From Chryseobacterium turcicum (GTDB lineage: Bacteria > Bacteroidota > Bacteroidia > Flavobacteriales > Weeksellaceae), in assembly GCF_021010565.1 (NCBI RefSeq), contig NZ_JAJNAY010000001.1, positions 1,902,001-1,966,000 on the forward strand: DNA of 64,000 nt, given 5' to 3'. A program made the translations under genes and the position numbers. A model generated the notes under the pieces. It did no database searches and was not told where the DNA came from. It saw nothing but the letters and a program-made list of their open reading frames with translations. This document shows positions 1,249 through 53,393 of the stretch, one piece after another; positions within the stretch are counted from its first letter, which is position 1; each line of letters opens with the position of its first letter.

Positions 1249-3105
1249 TTACTTTTTACCAGTTAACCATTGATCCTGAAGTTTTTGTTCTGCAGAAGTA
1301 GGATTGGCTTTAAATTGTAATGTCTCTAAAGTTATTTTATCTAAAATAGCTTTTCCTTTCAAATCAATTTTGTCCATTTTATCACCGTTTTTACGAAGAA
1401 TAGTTACGGTAACATCCTGTCCGTCTTTGATTGACTGTGCATACCCAATAAATTCTTGCGCATTTTGAATGTTAATTGTTTTTCCGTCTAAGGCAACAAC
1501 TTCATCAGTAATTTTAAAACCAATATTTTTTGAGAAAGCAGAAAGTGCTGAGTTTTCATCAAACACAAATGCATTGTTTTTTTCGTTGTAACCTGTTTGT
1601 TCAGGGTTTTTAATAAACCAGAAAATTGGCGGAGTCTCCTGTTTTTTTATTTCTACACCTACTTGAGCTAAATATTCTGCATACGGAGTAGGCTGGCTTC
1701 CGGCAATATATTTATTATAAAAATCTTTTACTTGCGGATATCCGGTAATGGTTACCAATTCATCAATCAGTTTATCATCTTTGAAAGGTTTGTTCTCTCC
1801 AAATCTTTGAGATAATTTTCTGATCATATCACGATATCCCATTTCTCCGTTTGATAATTTTCTCAACTCAATATCAAGACACATTGTCAAAAGTGTTCCC
1901 TTTTCGTAAACATTTCGGTACTGATCCTTGTATTGATCTTGAAGAATATTTTTGCTCATCACCGTAAACGGCATGGTGTCGTTGTAGTTTTTAGAATTTT
2001 TGATTTTATCGCCAATTCTCTGTAAAAACTGCTCTTTCGTAATTAAACCTTCCTGAATTTGGAATAAATTGGCAAAATATTCGGTTCCGCCTTCGTACAT
2101 CCAAAGATGTTGAGACATTTTCGGATCTGCATAATCAAAGTAATGAATTTCTTCAGAATGTGTTTTCAAAGGATTTACCGTATGGAAAAATTCATGAGAA
2201 ACTACGTCTACAATTGATTCGTCGATTGCTTCTTTCGGCATCATTTCGTGAAGAACAACACTGGTAGATTCGTGATGTTCCAAAGCTCCGAAACCTTTTA
2301 TTTGCGGACCTTCGGTTCCTGCAAGATAAAGCATGATTGCATATTTTTTGTTGGTATTCATATCACCCAAAAATTTCTTTTGAGCAACAACCATTTTCTC
2401 TAAATTTTCTTTAAAATCGACTGCTTTATATTTTCCGGTCGGAGAGTAAACTCCCAAAACAAGATCCATTCCTCCTGCATTGAATGTAATGTAATCAGGT
2501 TTTGAATACATTAAAGGTGAATCGGTCAGTTTAGCATAGTTTGCTAGTGTAAACGTATCGGTTGCTTCAGATTTATCCTGATCTACCAAAGCGGTCGTTC
2601 CGTAAAAATCATTAGGTTTCTGAATCACCAATTGATACGGAACATCCTGCATATTGTCGATATAACCTACAAAACCATGCGTATTGATTAAATACACTTT
2701 TCCCTGCTCGATATCTGTTCCTGAAGGTGAAAAAACAGCTTTATGTTTATCGGTTTCGTTTTCTTCGTCGAAACTGTCATTCACCAAATAGGTAATTTTA
2801 GTTAAAGCCTTTGCGTTTTTTAGTGAATATGTATTGTCATTCACTTTGGTAAAAGCGATTTCTTTACCTTTGTTATCTAAAAACTTTATGCCTTCAATAA
2901 ATCTTCCGTAGTCATCTATAGAATATGTTCCAGGAACCGTTTTTGGAAAGTGAAATTTTACGTCATTCGATTTCATTTTCGGAAACTCCATCGTTACAGC
3001 TATTTTATCATCTTTTACATTCACCAGGTCGATGTTTGTTTTTATAGATTGCGCTTGAACGAAAGCCACTGCAAGAATCCCTAAACTAATTGCAAATTTT
3101 TTCAT
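1249..3105 (-). CDS. M61 family (glycyl aminopeptidase-like) metallopeptidase with PDZ domain
   Basis: A 618-residue exported protein (signal MKKFAISLGILAVAFVQAQ). The zinc-binding HEFFH motif lies near residue 303, followed by WMYEGGTEYFANLF, which supplies the third ligand, as in M61 peptidases. A C-terminal segment (about 500-600; VVALDGKTI, VTILRKNG) reads as a PDZ domain. The N-terminal part is the beta-rich M61 domain. It is probably a periplasmic or surface peptidase. The next upstream gene is an M1 peptidase in the same direction, but a terminator separates them, so they are probably independent units. Confidence 0.9.
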   Translation of the reverse strand: MKKFAISLGILAVAFVQAQSIKTNIDLVNVKDDKIAVTMEFPKMKSNDVKFHFPKTVPGTYSIDDYGRFIEGIKFLDNKGKEIAFTKVNDNTYSLKNAKALTKITYLVNDSFDEENETDKHKAVFSPSGTDIEQGKVYLINTHGFVGYIDNMQDVPYQLVIQKPNDFYGTTALVDQDKSEATDTFTLANYAKLTDSPLMYSKPDYITFNAGGMDLVLGVYSPTGKYKAVDFKENLEKMVVAQKKFLGDMNTNKKYAIMLYLAGTEGPQIKGFGALEHHESTSVVLHEMMPKEAIDESIVDVVSHEFFHTVNPLKTHSEEIHYFDYADPKMSQHLWMYEGGTEYFANLFQIQEGLITKEQFLQRIGDKIKNSKNYNDTMPFTVMSKNILQDQYKDQYRNVYEKGTLLTMCLDIELRKLSNGEMGYRDMIRKLSQRFGENKPFKDDKLIDELVTITGYPQVKDFYNKYIAGSQPTPYAEYLAQVGVEIKKQETPPIFWFIKNPEQTGYNEKNNAFVFDENSALSAFSKNIGFKITDEVVALDGKTINIQNAQEFIGYAQSIKDGQDVTVTILRKNGDKMDKIDLKGKAILDKITLETLQFKANPTSAEQKLQDQWLTGKK

Positions 3106-26455: not shown

Positions 26456-27424
26456 ATGACAAATTTAGAAAAAAAAGTAATCGGGGTGGATGTGAGTTCA
26501 AAAATTCTGGTGATGAGTTTTTTGAATGAACAAAACAAACAAATGATTCTGAGTGTTTTGAACACCAAAACTGAGATTGAAAAAAATTTGAAAAAATTAG
26601 GCAAAGAAAATTACAAAATCGTAGTAGAGGCCACAGGAAACTACAGCAGTAAAATTTTGTATTATGCTTATACGCTTGGTTTTGAAGTGTTTCAGGTAAG
26701 TGGGTTTTCTATTAAGAAATTCTCAGAAGCCCGGAATCTTATCAGTAAAACAGACGAAGAAGATGCGAGAATGATTAGGAATTTTGGAGAAATAATGGAA
26801 ATGATTCCTTTCGAACCAAGAAAAGAAAACCTAGAATTTTTAGATCAAGAACTTAATCTTTTGCAAGATTTGGATCAGGAAAAAGCGAGATTTTCATTAA
26901 AACTAAAATCACTTCGTGAGAGGGCAAATCCGAGTAAAGAAGTGATAAAACATTATGAATCGGTTATAAAATCATTATCAAAAGAGATAGAAAAAGTAAA
27001 AAAAAGACTTCCAAAATTAGAAGATGAAGAATTAAAAGAAAGCAAGGAATTACTCATCAGCATTAGTGGAATTGGAGAAAAAACAGTATTGCTTTTATTG
27101 GTGGCGACGAATAATTTTAAGAATTTCAAAAGCGCAAAATCGGTGGCAAAATATTTTGGCGTTGCTCCAAGAATGTATCATTCTGGAAACAAAAAGATTA
27201 CGATTGGAAAATGCAGAACAAGTAAAGGCTTTGTGAGGAGTGTTTTATATGTTTGTTCTTGGAGTGCGATACGATTTAATACGCAGTGCAAGTCACTTTA
27301 TGAAAGGATTTTAGAAAAAGGAAAGTGCAAAAAAGTGGCTTTAATTGCCGTTTGTAACAAACTTTTGAGACAAACTTTCGGGATCATTACTAAGAAACAA
27401 AAATATCAACCAAATTATATTTAA
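26456..27424 (+). CDS. IS110-family transposase (IS-A)
   Basis: A 322-residue DEDD transposase/recombinase. The RuvC-like N-terminal domain has IGVDVSSKILV (first Asp), VVEATGNYS (Glu) and KTDEEDARMIRNFG (two Asp). A coiled coil spans about 130-190. The C-terminal Tnp domain has ISGIGEKTVLLLLV, YFGVAPRMYHSGNKK (candidate catalytic Ser) and AVCNKLLRQTFGI. It acts with a bridge RNA made from its own left end. Intact length. Confidence 0.92.
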   Translation: MTNLEKKVIGVDVSSKILVMSFLNEQNKQMILSVLNTKTEIEKNLKKLGKENYKIVVEATGNYSSKILYYAYTLGFEVFQVSGFSIKKFSEARNLISKTDEEDARMIRNFGEIMEMIPFEPRKENLEFLDQELNLLQDLDQEKARFSLKLKSLRERANPSKEVIKHYESVIKSLSKEIEKVKKRLPKLEDEELKESKELLISISGIGEKTVLLLLVATNNFKNFKSAKSVAKYFGVAPRMYHSGNKKITIGKCRTSKGFVRSVLYVCSWSAIRFNTQCKSLYERILEKGKCKKVALIAVCNKLLRQTFGIITKKQKYQPNYI

Positions 27425-35856: not shown

Positions 35857-35999
35857 ATATCCTCAAACAATTTAAAAAAAATCTTTGCGCTCATTGCGTT
35901 AAATAAATAATTATGTTTAAATCAATATATAAAATCTCTTTTACAGTTTGAAAACAAAAGATTTTTATTTTCCAAAAAAAAGTCTCACATTTGCGGCAT

Positions 36000-36085
36000 T
36001 AATGGGGTGCTGCATATTGCGGCTGAGATGATACCCGGGAAGTTTTTCCACACCTGATTCGGATAATGCCGACGTAGGGATTTTT
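36000..36085 (+). promoter_or_regulatory. TPP riboswitch (THI box)
   Basis: The conserved blocks appear in order: TGGGGTGC, GGCTGAGATGATACCCGG, ACCTGATTCGGATAATGCC, then GACGTAGGGA. This is the thiamine pyrophosphate aptamer. It sits about 40 bases before the transporter gene, so TPP should lower transporter expression. Confidence 0.93.
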
Positions 36086-36127
36086 ATAATTTATCATCTC
36101 ATCATTTAATTTATATAAGTTAATTTG

Positions 36128-50074: not shown

Positions 50075-50090
50075 CCGTTTTTTACAATGA

Positions 50091-50237
50091 CCGCTAACGT
50101 TCCGAGGCTTGACGACACAGAGCAAAAGCTAATTATTATGGAGTAAATATAACAAAAACCTCTATAAAATTGGTTTTTGCGAAATCGGAAACCAATTTTT
50201 CAATTCACTTCGACACCAGCCATTGCGCCAAACCTAT
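50091..50237 (-). repeat. attC-like site, type A, interrupted by IS-B
   Basis: The site reads CGCTAACGTTCCGAGGCTTG ... GCGCCAAACCTAT and stops at 50237. Its missing end GTTGGGC lies at 51472-51478, on the other side of IS-B. Joining them gives AAACCTAT-GTTGGGC, which matches the intact type A site AAGCCTAT-GTTAGCG at 56030-56043. Confidence 0.85.
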
Positions 50238-50294
50238 CATATGTTTGCAATTCTATAAATTTATTAATTATAAAACGATAAAAAAGAAAGAATC

Positions 50295-50434
50295 AATGAG
50301 CAGAATAAGATAGGCAAACCCTTTAAGCATTAAGCTTGGCTAACATGATTATCCCTGCTCATTTTCTTACCACAAACCGTACAGTTTATTTGAACATCAA
50401 GTTCGTGCTAGGATCGTTGGTTAAAAGGTAAGAA
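50295..50434 (+). ncRNA. Candidate bridge RNA of IS-B
   Basis: Target loop: stem AATGAGCAG/CTGCTCATT (50295-50303, 50355-50363), apical stem AAGC/GCTT, right guide GGCTAACAT (50338-50346) complementary to ATGTTAGCC, that is core AT plus the attC end; left side holds CAAACC (50315-50320), identical to the left flank. Donor loop: stem TTCTTACC/GGTAAGAA (50364-50371, 50427-50434); left guide ACAGTTTAT (50381-50389) pairs with the right end ACAATTCAT if two G-U pairs are allowed. No right donor guide was found. Confidence 0.65.
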
Positions 50435-50467
50435 TCATTCTCTCAATAAAAATTAAAAGTATAAAAA

Positions 50468-51445
50468 ATGGAAGAGAAAAACAATTATTGCGGTATTGAT
50501 GTTTCCAGTGAGACATTAGATATTTATTTTAAAAACAAGGAAGGAATTCTTCAGCATTTACAAGTCACAAATACAGTTTCGGGTTTTCGTAAAATAATAA
50601 AATTATCGGGCAAGTCAACTCATTTTGTAATGGAAGCGACGGGAGTTTATCACTTGCATTTTATTTTTTTTTTGAAGGAACAAAATATGGCTTTTAGTGT
50701 GGTAAATGCGTTGCAGATCAAGCGTTACATCCAGATGCATTTGGAACGTAACAAATCGGATAAAAAAGATGCAAAACGAATCTACGAATATGGTGTTGAC
50801 CGACAACCGGAAATCTACGCCATGCCCGATACAGCGTACTTTGAGTACCGTTCTTTAAACAACGCTATTCACGATTTAACGAAAGAAATCACCAAATTCA
50901 GCAACCAGATCCATAGCATCAAAAAATGTCCTTTTGAGACGAAAACCATTGAGAAAAGCTTTGAAAAAATAATAAAAAAACTTAAGGAAGAGAAGCAGAA
51001 TTTAGAGATGATTTTGCAGCAAAAACTGATGGCCTGGGAGTCAGAAATGTTGAAATTGGTTACCAGCGTAAAAGGAATCGGCAGCAGAGCAGGAGCAGAA
51101 CTTATCATCTATACCCAAGGTTTTAAAGATATGGATTCTTACAAGCAATTGATCTCTTATGCAGGTCTAAGTCCCACCGAATATCGGAGCGGAAGCAGCA
51201 TCCGTGGACGGGTTAGAATCTGTAAACAGGGCGGAAAACAACTGCGGCATATTCTGTACATGTGTGCCTTAAATGCGAAGAAAACCAATGCACAATGCAA
51301 AGCACTTTTTGACCGTTTAGTTGAGAAGGGAAAGAACAAAAAAGCAGCCATCATTGCGGTGTGCAACAAGCTGCTCAAGATTGTATTTGGGGTGGTAAAA
51401 AACAAAACAATGTATCAAGATAATTTTATTGCAAAAAGTGCCTGA
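50468..51445 (+). CDS. IS110-family transposase (IS-B)
   Basis: A 325-residue DEDD transposase: CGIDVSSETLDIYF (Asp), VMEATGVYH (Glu), NKSDKKDAKRIYEYG (Asp). The C-terminal Tnp domain has SVKGIGSRAGAELIIYTQG, YAGLSPTEYRSGSSIRGR (candidate catalytic Ser) and AVCNKLLKIVFGV. Intact and in the opposite direction to the cassettes. Related to, but clearly different from, the IS-A transposase. Confidence 0.93.
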   Translation: MEEKNNYCGIDVSSETLDIYFKNKEGILQHLQVTNTVSGFRKIIKLSGKSTHFVMEATGVYHLHFIFFLKEQNMAFSVVNALQIKRYIQMHLERNKSDKKDAKRIYEYGVDRQPEIYAMPDTAYFEYRSLNNAIHDLTKEITKFSNQIHSIKKCPFETKTIEKSFEKIIKKLKEEKQNLEMILQQKLMAWESEMLKLVTSVKGIGSRAGAELIIYTQGFKDMDSYKQLISYAGLSPTEYRSGSSIRGRVRICKQGGKQLRHILYMCALNAKKTNAQCKALFDRLVEKGKNKKAAIIAVCNKLLKIVFGVVKNKTMYQDNFIAKSA

Positions 51446-51482
51446 AATGTTTGGTTTTTTACACAATTCATGTTGGGCGAAG

Positions 51483-52253
51483 CTATTTTATACCTCTTGA
51501 AATTCTATGATACATATAACCCCATATTGTTGGGTGATAATATAATTTACTTTTTCCCTTTTCTTTTGAGATAACAATACGTTCATTAAAATAATTATCT
51601 ACTGCTTCTACAAGTAATTTAACGCCTATTGATAGCTGTAACATTGGATAAGTAGAAAAATTGTCATGAGAATTGGGTACAATTTGTTTTTGTGCAATTA
51701 TGTTGCCTGTATCTATTCCTTCATCAACAAAATGTACTGTTACGCCACTATTGTCTACGTCGTTGTTTACAAGCGCCCAATATGTTCCATGTACGCCTCT
51801 ATACATAGGTGTAATACCTGCATGTGTATTGATAAATTTACAATTAACACTTTGTAGAACTTTTTTTGAAATAATTCTTGTCCCATTTACAATAATCAAA
51901 TCTGGGTTTAATGACTTAATTAATTCTATTGAACTTTTAGAGTTTATTGAAGTTGTTTTTTTTATTTTGTGTGAAGGTATTTCATCTGTTATTAAGTTGT
52001 TACTTTTCAATATTTCTTCATTTCTATTTTTCGATAAGAAGTGAAGTGTTTTTGGTATAATGAGTTGAAAACAGATTTGTCCAAATACAGTAGTAAATCC
52101 AAGTCGCTTTATTCTTCTTTTTAAGAAAATTTTTAAAGGTTCTTTATCTTCAATAATTGCAGTAACAACATTAAATTTTTCATTTAATGCGTTAAATACA
52201 ATGCTGGTTGATTGTCCATAACCACCAAGCAAAATTATCTTTTTATCCTTCAT
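51483..52253 (-). CDS. Formyltransferase family protein
   Basis: A 256-residue protein with the formyltransferase core: INTHAGITPMYRGVHGTYWA (catalytic Asn and His) and FVDEGIDTGNIIAQ (Asp). Family members transfer formyl groups from 10-formyl-THF to amino sugars or methionyl-tRNA; the size and partner suggest an amino-sugar substrate. It overlaps the upstream deacetylase gene by 11 bases; together they form a two-gene cassette. Confidence 0.85.
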   Translation of the reverse strand: MKDKKIILLGGYGQSTSIVFNALNEKFNVVTAIIEDKEPLKIFLKRRIKRLGFTTVFGQICFQLIIPKTLHFLSKNRNEEILKSNNLITDEIPSHKIKKTTSINSKSSIELIKSLNPDLIIVNGTRIISKKVLQSVNCKFINTHAGITPMYRGVHGTYWALVNNDVDNSGVTVHFVDEGIDTGNIIAQKQIVPNSHDNFSTYPMLQLSIGVKLLVEAVDNYFNERIVISKEKGKSKLYYHPTIWGYMYHRISRGIK

Positions 52254-53226
52254 TTTGTATTTTTTTTGCTAAATTACTCATTGTAATACTTTGAAAATTG
52301 TATTTTAGATTTAAAAGTTTGTAATGCTCTAATATTTTTTCTAAAAAATTGAAATTTTCATTTTGATTTATTCCGAAATTATGTGGATGCCACCACAAAT
52401 GATAGGTTAAATTATTTTTTGCAGCATATGTCATTCCTGATTTTATACGATTTAATCTTAGTTGGTCAAATATCTTTAAGCTATTACTAAACGGTCTCAA
52501 AAACCTACTTGATGGTATGTCAATAGGGAATTTACTCTTTAAACATTCTGTACTATAACAATTATGTCCTGAAATATTAATGTAGGCATCTATTAAACGT
52601 AAAGCTCTTCGGAAACTACTTTCTTGTTTTCCATTTTTTGCTTCATAAAGCCAAGAATGCTCGTTGCCTCTATAACAAATTATACCTAAATCATTACAGA
52701 CGTTTAAATATTCTTCATTAAACTGATTTCTAGGGAAAATTAATGATGTGATTACTACATTATTTTTTGTTGCAACTTTCATTGCATACGTAATGTCATC
52801 ACGAAATTGCTCAACTGTCTGACCACTTTCTAAACAATAATAATGCGAAAATGTATGTGAGCCAATTTCTTGTTTAGGATATTTCTTTATTTCTGCTATT
52901 AATTGTGGTGCAAAGTGGTATAAATCTTCTTTATAATTATCTCCAACTAAATTAAAATGTCCTAAGTAAGGGGAAAAATCATTATTATCATAACTCGGTA
53001 AATTTGATGGAATATTGCCAAGCAATTGTGCCTTATTTTCAAAAAACAAAAAACCTACTGTTGAAAATGTAGCATTAATGTCAAAAGTATTGAATGTATT
53101 TAAGAGTCTTGGAATAACAGTATGAACGCCTCTGATATTTTCGCCATATTCTTGAAATGTTTTTTTGTCTCGAACTCCCCAATGAAGTTCAAAGTCGAGT
53201 GATATTACAAATTTTCCGTTATTCAT
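52243..53226 (-). CDS. Polysaccharide deacetylase (NodB-fold) protein
   Basis: A 327-residue protein. SLDFELHWGV supplies the catalytic Asp region, GSHTFSHYYC the HxxxH zinc site, and SLIFPRNQFNEEYL the following conserved arginine motif. It removes N- or O-acetyl groups from a carbohydrate. Paired with a formyltransferase it may exchange acetyl for formyl on an amino sugar of a surface glycan; this is inference from the pairing. Confidence 0.85.
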   Translation of the reverse strand: MNNGKFVISLDFELHWGVRDKKTFQEYGENIRGVHTVIPRLLNTFNTFDINATFSTVGFLFFENKAQLLGNIPSNLPSYDNNDFSPYLGHFNLVGDNYKEDLYHFAPQLIAEIKKYPKQEIGSHTFSHYYCLESGQTVEQFRDDITYAMKVATKNNVVITSLIFPRNQFNEEYLNVCNDLGIICYRGNEHSWLYEAKNGKQESSFRRALRLIDAYINISGHNCYSTECLKSKFPIDIPSSRFLRPFSNSLKIFDQLRLNRIKSGMTYAAKNNLTYHLWWHPHNFGINQNENFNFLEKILEHYKLLNLKYNFQSITMSNLAKKIQNEG

Positions 53227-53259: not shown

Positions 53260-53393
53260 GCCCAACGTTCTGCCGCTTGGTGCAGTAGCGACTGCGTGGA
53301 ACGATTATTTCTTGCTAAGATAAGATTTTCCAGCGGAAAATCGAACGTGATGCTAATTGTAAATTTAGCTATTGTGCCAAACCGTTGTTAGCC
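53260..53393 (-). repeat. attC-like site (own type)
   Basis: GCCCAACGTTCTGCCGCTTG with GTGCAGTAGC at one end, GCTATTGTGCCAAACCGTT and GTTAGCC at the other. Its GCCCAAC box equals the complement of GTTGGGC at 51472, the other end of the same cassette. Confidence 0.8.

Follow-up and report, generated by a model that had tools for sequence, protein, structure and literature searches.

The insertion sequence described here is an IS110-type element located in a 64,000-nucleotide stretch of the Chryseobacterium turcicum genome (referred to below as the window, whose numbering is used throughout), and the guides of its predicted bridge RNA fit the two boxes, L'' and R'', of attC-like sites, where they very probably serve for insertion. 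The anatomy of the element, its insertion site, the agreement between guides and flanks in its relatives and the retention of the catalytic positions are read directly from the DNA. The element and the site occupied by it comprise the following features.

50087-50237, strand not assigned: left part of the interrupted attC-like site with R' CCGCTAAC, L' GAGGCTTGACG, a variable middle and L'' GCGCCAAACCTAT (from the sequence; layout as in the empty sites of the array)
50236-50237, plus: core AT, left junction (from the sequence)
50238-51469, plus: IS110-type element, 1232 bp between two AT cores (ends aligned with sister copies)
50238-50248, plus: left end CATATGTTTGC, CCTATGTTTGC in sister copies, containing TAnnTTTG (alignment)
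50295-50363, plus: predicted target-binding stem-loop, stem 50295-50303/50355-50363 (folding, stem finder, RNAalifold)
50315-50323, plus: left target guide CAAACCCTT (sequence and flank comparison)
50338-50346, plus: right target guide GGCTAACAT, complement ATGTTAGCC (sequence and flank comparison)
50364-50434, plus: predicted donor-binding stem-loop, stem 50364-50371/50427-50434 (folding)
50381-50389, plus: predicted left donor guide ACAGTTTAT; the right end reads ACAGTTCAT in sister copies and ACAATTCAT in the window (end comparison)
50409-50414, plus: predicted right donor guide TAGGAT, complement ATCCTA; left ends read CCTATG in sister copies and CATATG in the window
50468-51445, plus: IS110 recombinase, 325 amino acids, DEDD_Tnp_IS110 and Transposase_20 (Pfam domains)
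51459-51469, plus: right end TTACACAATTC (sequence and alignment with sister copies)
51470-51471, plus: core AT, right junction (from the sequence)
51472-51478, strand not assigned: R'' box GTTGGGC of the interrupted attC-like site (from the sequence)
53378-53393, plus: empty attC-like site with one mismatch to the guides, CAAACCGTTGTTAGCC (pattern search of the window)

The recombinase aligns with that of IS621 over residues 1-314 (E 1.1e-29), and its residues D11, E56, D98, D101 and S241 coincide with D11, E60, D102, D105 and S241 of IS621, which we take to be the catalytic positions; both the domains and the catalytic DEDD-Ser set of an IS110-type enzyme are present. Non-coding DNA amounts to 230 bases upstream of the gene (50238-50467) and 24 bases downstream of it (51446-51469), so that the element has the long upstream non-coding region of the IS110 type, and the IS1111 arrangement, a downstream non-coding region in which the top-strand match comes first, is not seen in it. 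An Rfam scan of the window assigned no family to the element. The sole match of that scan is a TPP riboswitch elsewhere in the window (35993-36097; RF00059, 54.9 bits).

The preliminary description had extended the element from 50238 to 51478; its start holds, whereas the element stops at 51469 and is followed by the AT core and then by R'' of the target. Insertion between CCTAT, which ends at 50237, and GTT (51472-51474), as also proposed there, is borne out by the sequence. With GCGCCAAACCTAT as its left and GTTGGGC as its right flank, the element separates L'' from R'' in a site that has its R' box near 50090. From about 43.6 to 57.9 kb all frames of at least 130 amino acids, the element alone excepted, are on the minus strand, and most of them are separated by imperfect repeats that read on the plus strand R' (ACCGCTAACG), L' (GGGGCTTTGCG-like), a variable middle, L'' (GCGCAAAACC-like) and R'' (GTTAGC-like). 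Host genes resume at 58.2 kb, for example with an ssb-like gene (named by eye). Judged by its sequence this arrangement is that of an integron cassette array, with inverted R''-L''...L'-R' boxes between cassettes of one orientation (the partner boxes at sites of other element types being recognized by eye). At up to three mismatches CAAACCCWTGTTAGCC has four matches in the window, all of them in empty sites of the same array, where 0.64 were expected and four were reached in 0 of 100 shuffles; genome-wide, the 16-base target at the same tolerance is not enriched (43 matches versus 85 for the reversed control). Adjacent to the element, at 51483-53226, two neighbouring minus-strand frames, formyltransferase-like and polysaccharide-deacetylase-like by eye, overlap by 11 bases and may form a two-gene cassette. 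A second region with several attC-like matches is found in the same genome (contig C2, around 369-374 kb, locus L004).

The integron nature of these sites bears closer inspection. A canonical integron integrase, as judged by the TIGR02249 cut-off, was not found in the window's genome; the cut-off was reached in 0 of 16 related genomes, 10 of which contain weaker matches, and a separate integron-integrase search, run without a working positive control, returned 0 of 173 genomes. Together with R boxes that often deviate from strict GTTRRRY, this leaves room for the reading that the target sites constitute another repeat family with similar boxes, in which case the RNA guidance would be real and the integron label wrong. 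We consider this rather unlikely in view of the R'-L'...L''-R'' layout, of the strand uniformity of the array frames described above, and of a tyrosine recombinase that in genome G060 stands divergently next to a cassette-like frame and an attC-like site. Tyrosine recombinases (L082 1222-2046 on the minus strand plus 2904-3015, L080 1216-2283, L077 1198-2346) adjoin cassette sites or stand within about 15 kb of them; they exceed the NF040815 cut-off and give sub-threshold matches to TIGR02249 in two pieces, with the middle part apparently absent. A recombinase without the IntI insert may thus run an integron-like system.

Within the upstream region, the basal stem named in the preliminary description, AATGAGCAG (50295-50303) and CTGCTCATT (50355-50363), and its right guide are both present at the positions given. 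Folding, suggested there as a check, is in keeping with this hairpin: for region 50293-50366 z is -2.26 and 5 of 200 shuffles are equally stable, while the longer region 50280-50429 folds less distinctively (z -1.42). From 28 rows RNAalifold recovered the basal stem alone, the compensatory changes of which are partly built in because the regions had been picked for having such a stem. The left guide had been read as CAAACC, which is in place and too short, the full guide spanning nine bases; it fits GCCAAACCCTT, found in the flanks of three sister copies (L045, L048, L050), better than the window flank CAAACCTAT, from which it differs at two bases. Contrary to the earlier reading of the right flank as ATGTTAGCC, the perfect complement of the guide, the actual flank is ATGTTGGGC, which pairs with the guide save for one G:U pair and one mismatch. 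As the left guide reads like the top strand on the left of the target, it would pair with the bottom strand, whereas the right guide complements the top strand on the right. The bottom-strand guide therefore lies 5' of the top-strand guide, as in IS110-type elements, and the claimed correspondence with the target loop of IS621 agrees with the order given in the available text of PMC11208160 and, for ISEc21, in that of PMC11187229. The recombinase loaded with the predicted RNA would be expected to target GCCAAACCCTTGTTAGC.

Copies of the same element were sought in overlapping samples of 197, 173, 395 and 395 genomes, with the best candidates taken per genome, so that all counts are lower bounds; an additional scan of a genome contigs collection contributed four loci. 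They occur in G060, in G064 (C. gilvum), in G099, in G105 and C. caseinilyticum, these two being probably the same genome, and in shortened form in G216, with recombinases 87-91% or upstream regions 81-94% identical. At least four copies are full-length (the window, two in G060, one in G064), and all of these sit in attC-like cassette sites. Among the matches listed, the right end abuts AT-GTT(A/G) in 10 of 10 readable cases (window, L018, a remnant in L018, L019, L026, L028, L038, L039, L040, L045), and the left end follows AAACCCTT or AAACCTAT, of the AAACCC/AAACCT type, in eight of nine (window, L018, L019, L028, L044, L045, L048, L050). The ninth, L049, which misfits, is a remnant whose recombinase gene has been replaced by other sequence (by eye). 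An upstream partner R'/L' box was seen by eye in seven of the eight fitting copies, the exception being L044. Left out were a 46-base match in G025 (L046) and the short matches L005-L009, and one right end, cut off after ATGT where L074 stops, was not counted. Some 950 bases upstream of its element, L018 has a right end of this element without the rest of it; GTTGTGC comes next, and by its sequence this is a remnant of an earlier insertion. A plasmid collection yielded nine records with distant relatives.

Copies with the same loop in unrelated sites, which the preliminary description had named as the result that speaks against it, are thus absent from these right and left ends. As the full-length copies all occupy cassette sites that their guides match, it is likely the predicted RNA that directs the element to them. 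An accidental insertion into attC with a fortuitous match in the loop could draw on the lack of genome-wide enrichment of the target; it is nevertheless vanishingly improbable given this consistency of the ends, among the matches listed, and the permutation results for guide-flank agreement reported next.

For the comparison across relatives, 30 Bacteroidota element types were defined by a stem finder blind to the guides together with end motifs; the loops of L051, L070 and L020, missed by the finder, were set by pattern. The left guide scores 6.27 against its own left flank compared with a permuted mean of 4.04 (29 types), and the right guide 5.95 against its own right flank compared with 3.77 (27 types), each with 0 of 20,000 permutations as high; shared ancestry is not removed in these permutations. 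Because shared ancestry inflates such a result, own and swapped scores were compared within eight sister pairs of the recombinase tree, which was calculated without L002, G032, L090 and G841 and with L004 entered lacking its start. For the right guide, own minus swapped is positive in four of six scorable pairs (L023/L051 +5.0, L093/L101 +3.5, G061/L056 +5.0, L003/G283 +5.75), the others being L091/L092 (0) and L052/L063 (-1.0); for the left guide it is positive in six of eight (+1.0 to +6.6) and negative in G506/L054 (-0.5) and L052/L063 (-2.0). In L063 an inserted hairpin shifts the slice used as right guide. The right guides of L023 and L051 differ by a single base (CGCAAT, CGAAAT) and their flanks by the base paired with it (ATTGCG, ATTTCG); L062, a second copy of the L051 element that was not entered, has ATTCCG where the guide asks for ATTTCG. 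The covariation of loop and flank anticipated for related copies is hence seen in most, not all, comparisons: the target loop tracks the flanks, and the sister pairs mostly agree. Misfits concern the left flanks of L091 and L020, weakly that of L056, the right guide of L063, and L086, whose right flank is TTCTTAAT. The left neighbour of L020 resembles the right end of another copy, and the misfitting flanks may reflect rearranged or off-target insertions.

Several loci required individual treatment. Dropped as truncated or without a usable loop were L055, L060, L061, L089, L098, L025 and L021, four of which (L055, L060, L025, L021) have GTT just past the core in the right flank and look attC-like, uncounted here; L062, L095 and L085, the last without recognisable ends, were not entered. 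Eleven right flanks were typed by hand because the end pattern missed them; among these eleven, the flanks of L053, L064 and L066 replaced wrong hits. For G564 the second hit was used, and for L064, L069 and L092 the left-end hit nearest to the loop.

Recognition of attC-like DNA, or of its folded single strand, by the recombinase protein itself would reduce the resemblance in the RNA to a by-product. Sites of the attC kind fold, and IS1111-attC elements were reportedly site-specific before their guides were known (Tetu and Holmes in 2008 and Post and Hall in 2009 are said to have described them). We nevertheless give protein recognition little credence, since the guides vary among related recombinases with the flanks mostly varying along, the right guide occupies a near-constant position in the loop in most types, and the same RNA layout occurs with REP-like and attC-like targets.

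With RNA guidance as the preferred reading, the element types can be sorted by target. In type A (the window) and type B (G161) the guides match AAACC-type attC-like sites. Beyond the window's own type, 13 types have guides suited to attC-like sites, which fall into two classes; several of these types fit on one side only. The second-class set (L052, L063, G506, L054, G322c, L057, L086, L087, L088, L091, L092, L020; L054, L057, L087 and L088 scored on one side only) has GTCAACA-like right guides, shifted in L063 and ACAACA-like in G506 and L054, and mostly TATAC-type left guides; by eye its sites read TAACGTGTTTGTATA...TATACACGG|GTTAGC. L004, in the window's own genome, addresses the opposite arm of an attC-like site, TTTGGGGCTC and CTTTGCGA, with guides matching 10 and 8 bases. 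Ten related types match short repeats that were judged REP-like by eye (GTCAT followed, for instance, by TCCG): L002, G032, L023, L051, L090, L093, L101, G564, L096 and G841. Five have other targets (L003, G061, L058, G283, L056). One of these, L003, is a second IS110-type recombinase in the window (26456-27424), an open frame of 322 amino acids for which the genome-search match nonetheless lists an internal stop; its guides match its own flanks, AGAGTCTGT with one mismatch and GTTTAAA.

In G161, five type B copies occupy sites of a single cassette array within a 30-kb span; they are oriented against most of the cassette genes, and an R' box lies 123-157 bases upstream of every one of them. 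A sixth copy, L022, has no R' box upstream. A regular expression for the R' box did not separate attC types from others (10/31 versus 6/29), and a partner-box test by alignment gave a weak result; partner boxes of types other than B were read by eye. The recombinase tree places A apart from B and the other attC types, but its branches are long and the attC-targeting types may share one origin. We lean towards a Bacteroidota guild of IS110-type elements whose bridge RNAs have been turned onto integron-like sites more than once and which parasitise cassette arrays, its targets being the R'' arm (AAACC guides), the R'' arm of the second class (TATAC guides) and, in the same genome as the window, the opposite arm.

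The second stem-loop of the predicted RNA relates to the element's own ends. Region 50364-50438 folds with z -2.93, 1 of 200 shuffles being equally stable. Across types, a ACAGNNCA-like stretch of this loop equals the right end (own 7.92, swapped 5.47; 26 types) and a stretch further along complements the left end (own 5.72, swapped 4.61; 29 types), each with 0 of 20,000 permutations as high, again with shared ancestry not removed. The donor loop thus tracks the element ends for the set as a whole and not for the window copy, whose donor guides score 5.0 and 3.5 against its own ends versus 5.42 and 4.84 against those of other types. The window copy fails here because its ends have drifted (CATATG and ACAATTC versus CCTATG and ACAGTTC in sister copies), and it may therefore have a reduced ability to leave its site. 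Beyond this, these drifted ends with their poor donor-guide match, and an upstream region matched only once in its genome, are what a dead relic would show, activity then being confined to relatives; this is a real possibility, though we lean against it, as the reading frame is intact, the five catalytic positions are kept and the target guides are intact.

Upon joining the right and left ends in silico, TTTG-N20-TAnn(T/C)TTG is obtained in 15 of 26 types, compared with 2.2% for shuffled right ends, and the second promoter motif occurs in the left end alone in 21 of 26 types, compared with 2.1% of shuffled left ends. The available text of PMC6847099 and PMC2483708 gives TTTG/TAnnTTTG as the -33/-7 promoter consensus of Bacteroidota, and that of PMC6847099 describes G at -10 and -9 as almost absent from Flavobacterium promoters. 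As TATGTTTG and TAAGTTTG have the disfavoured G at -9, the strength of the promoter is in doubt. In the mechanism we propose, the element would circularise, its joined ends would form a promoter, and this would drive transcription of the upstream region; the recombinase would find the cassette site through the first loop of the RNA, and the second loop would hold the ends of the element. Insertion parts R'' from the rest of the site and would therefore stop the site from folding and recombining.

If the guild exists, it would be the counterpart, from the other branch of the family, of the IS1111-attC parasites of cassette arrays. The natural guide-target pairs, unusually easy to read and including sister elements that change both together, offer a source for the pairing rules of IS110 bridge RNAs. 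The data further suggest that RNA-guided elements in Bacteroidota have repeatedly taken refuge in cassette sites and that each such insertion would shut the site it occupies.

IS621 targets REP sequences, the present element an attC-like site. According to the available text on IS621 (IS110 group; 8wt6; PMC11208160), its RNA has, like the one predicted here, a target loop with left and right guides plus a donor loop; unlike IS621, with its CT core, the present elements have AT or TT, and their end junction resembles a Bacteroidota promoter. ISEc21, also of the IS110 type, shares the upstream RNA and the promoter from abutting ends that are predicted here, the guide order and natural redirection in a relative, as far as described in the available part of PMC11187229; its target there lies within an IS3-family transposase gene and not in a cassette site. 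According to the same partial text, matches to attC are present in the RNAs of two IS1111 elements, ISKpn4 and ISPst6, and are predicted for ISPa25. The expectation of a readable guide encoding attC is supported by the relatives, and the joining of bridge RNAs with attC insertion, proposed as new, had already been achieved there for ISKpn4 and ISPst6. Among the matches listed, no IS110-type or Bacteroidota attC-guided counterpart was found in titles and abstract openings. Like the IS1111-attC elements ISKpn4, ISPst6 and ISPa25 with their seekRNA, as they appear in that text, the window element is a site-specific DEDD element with a predicted non-coding RNA matching both attC strands. In IS1111-attC the RNA lies downstream of the transposase gene with the top-strand match first, whereas the RNA predicted here lies upstream with the bottom-strand match first (PMC11187229, available part), and the window element belongs to Bacteroidota and occupies differently built sites. 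It is an IS110-type, Bacteroidota counterpart of IS1111-attC.
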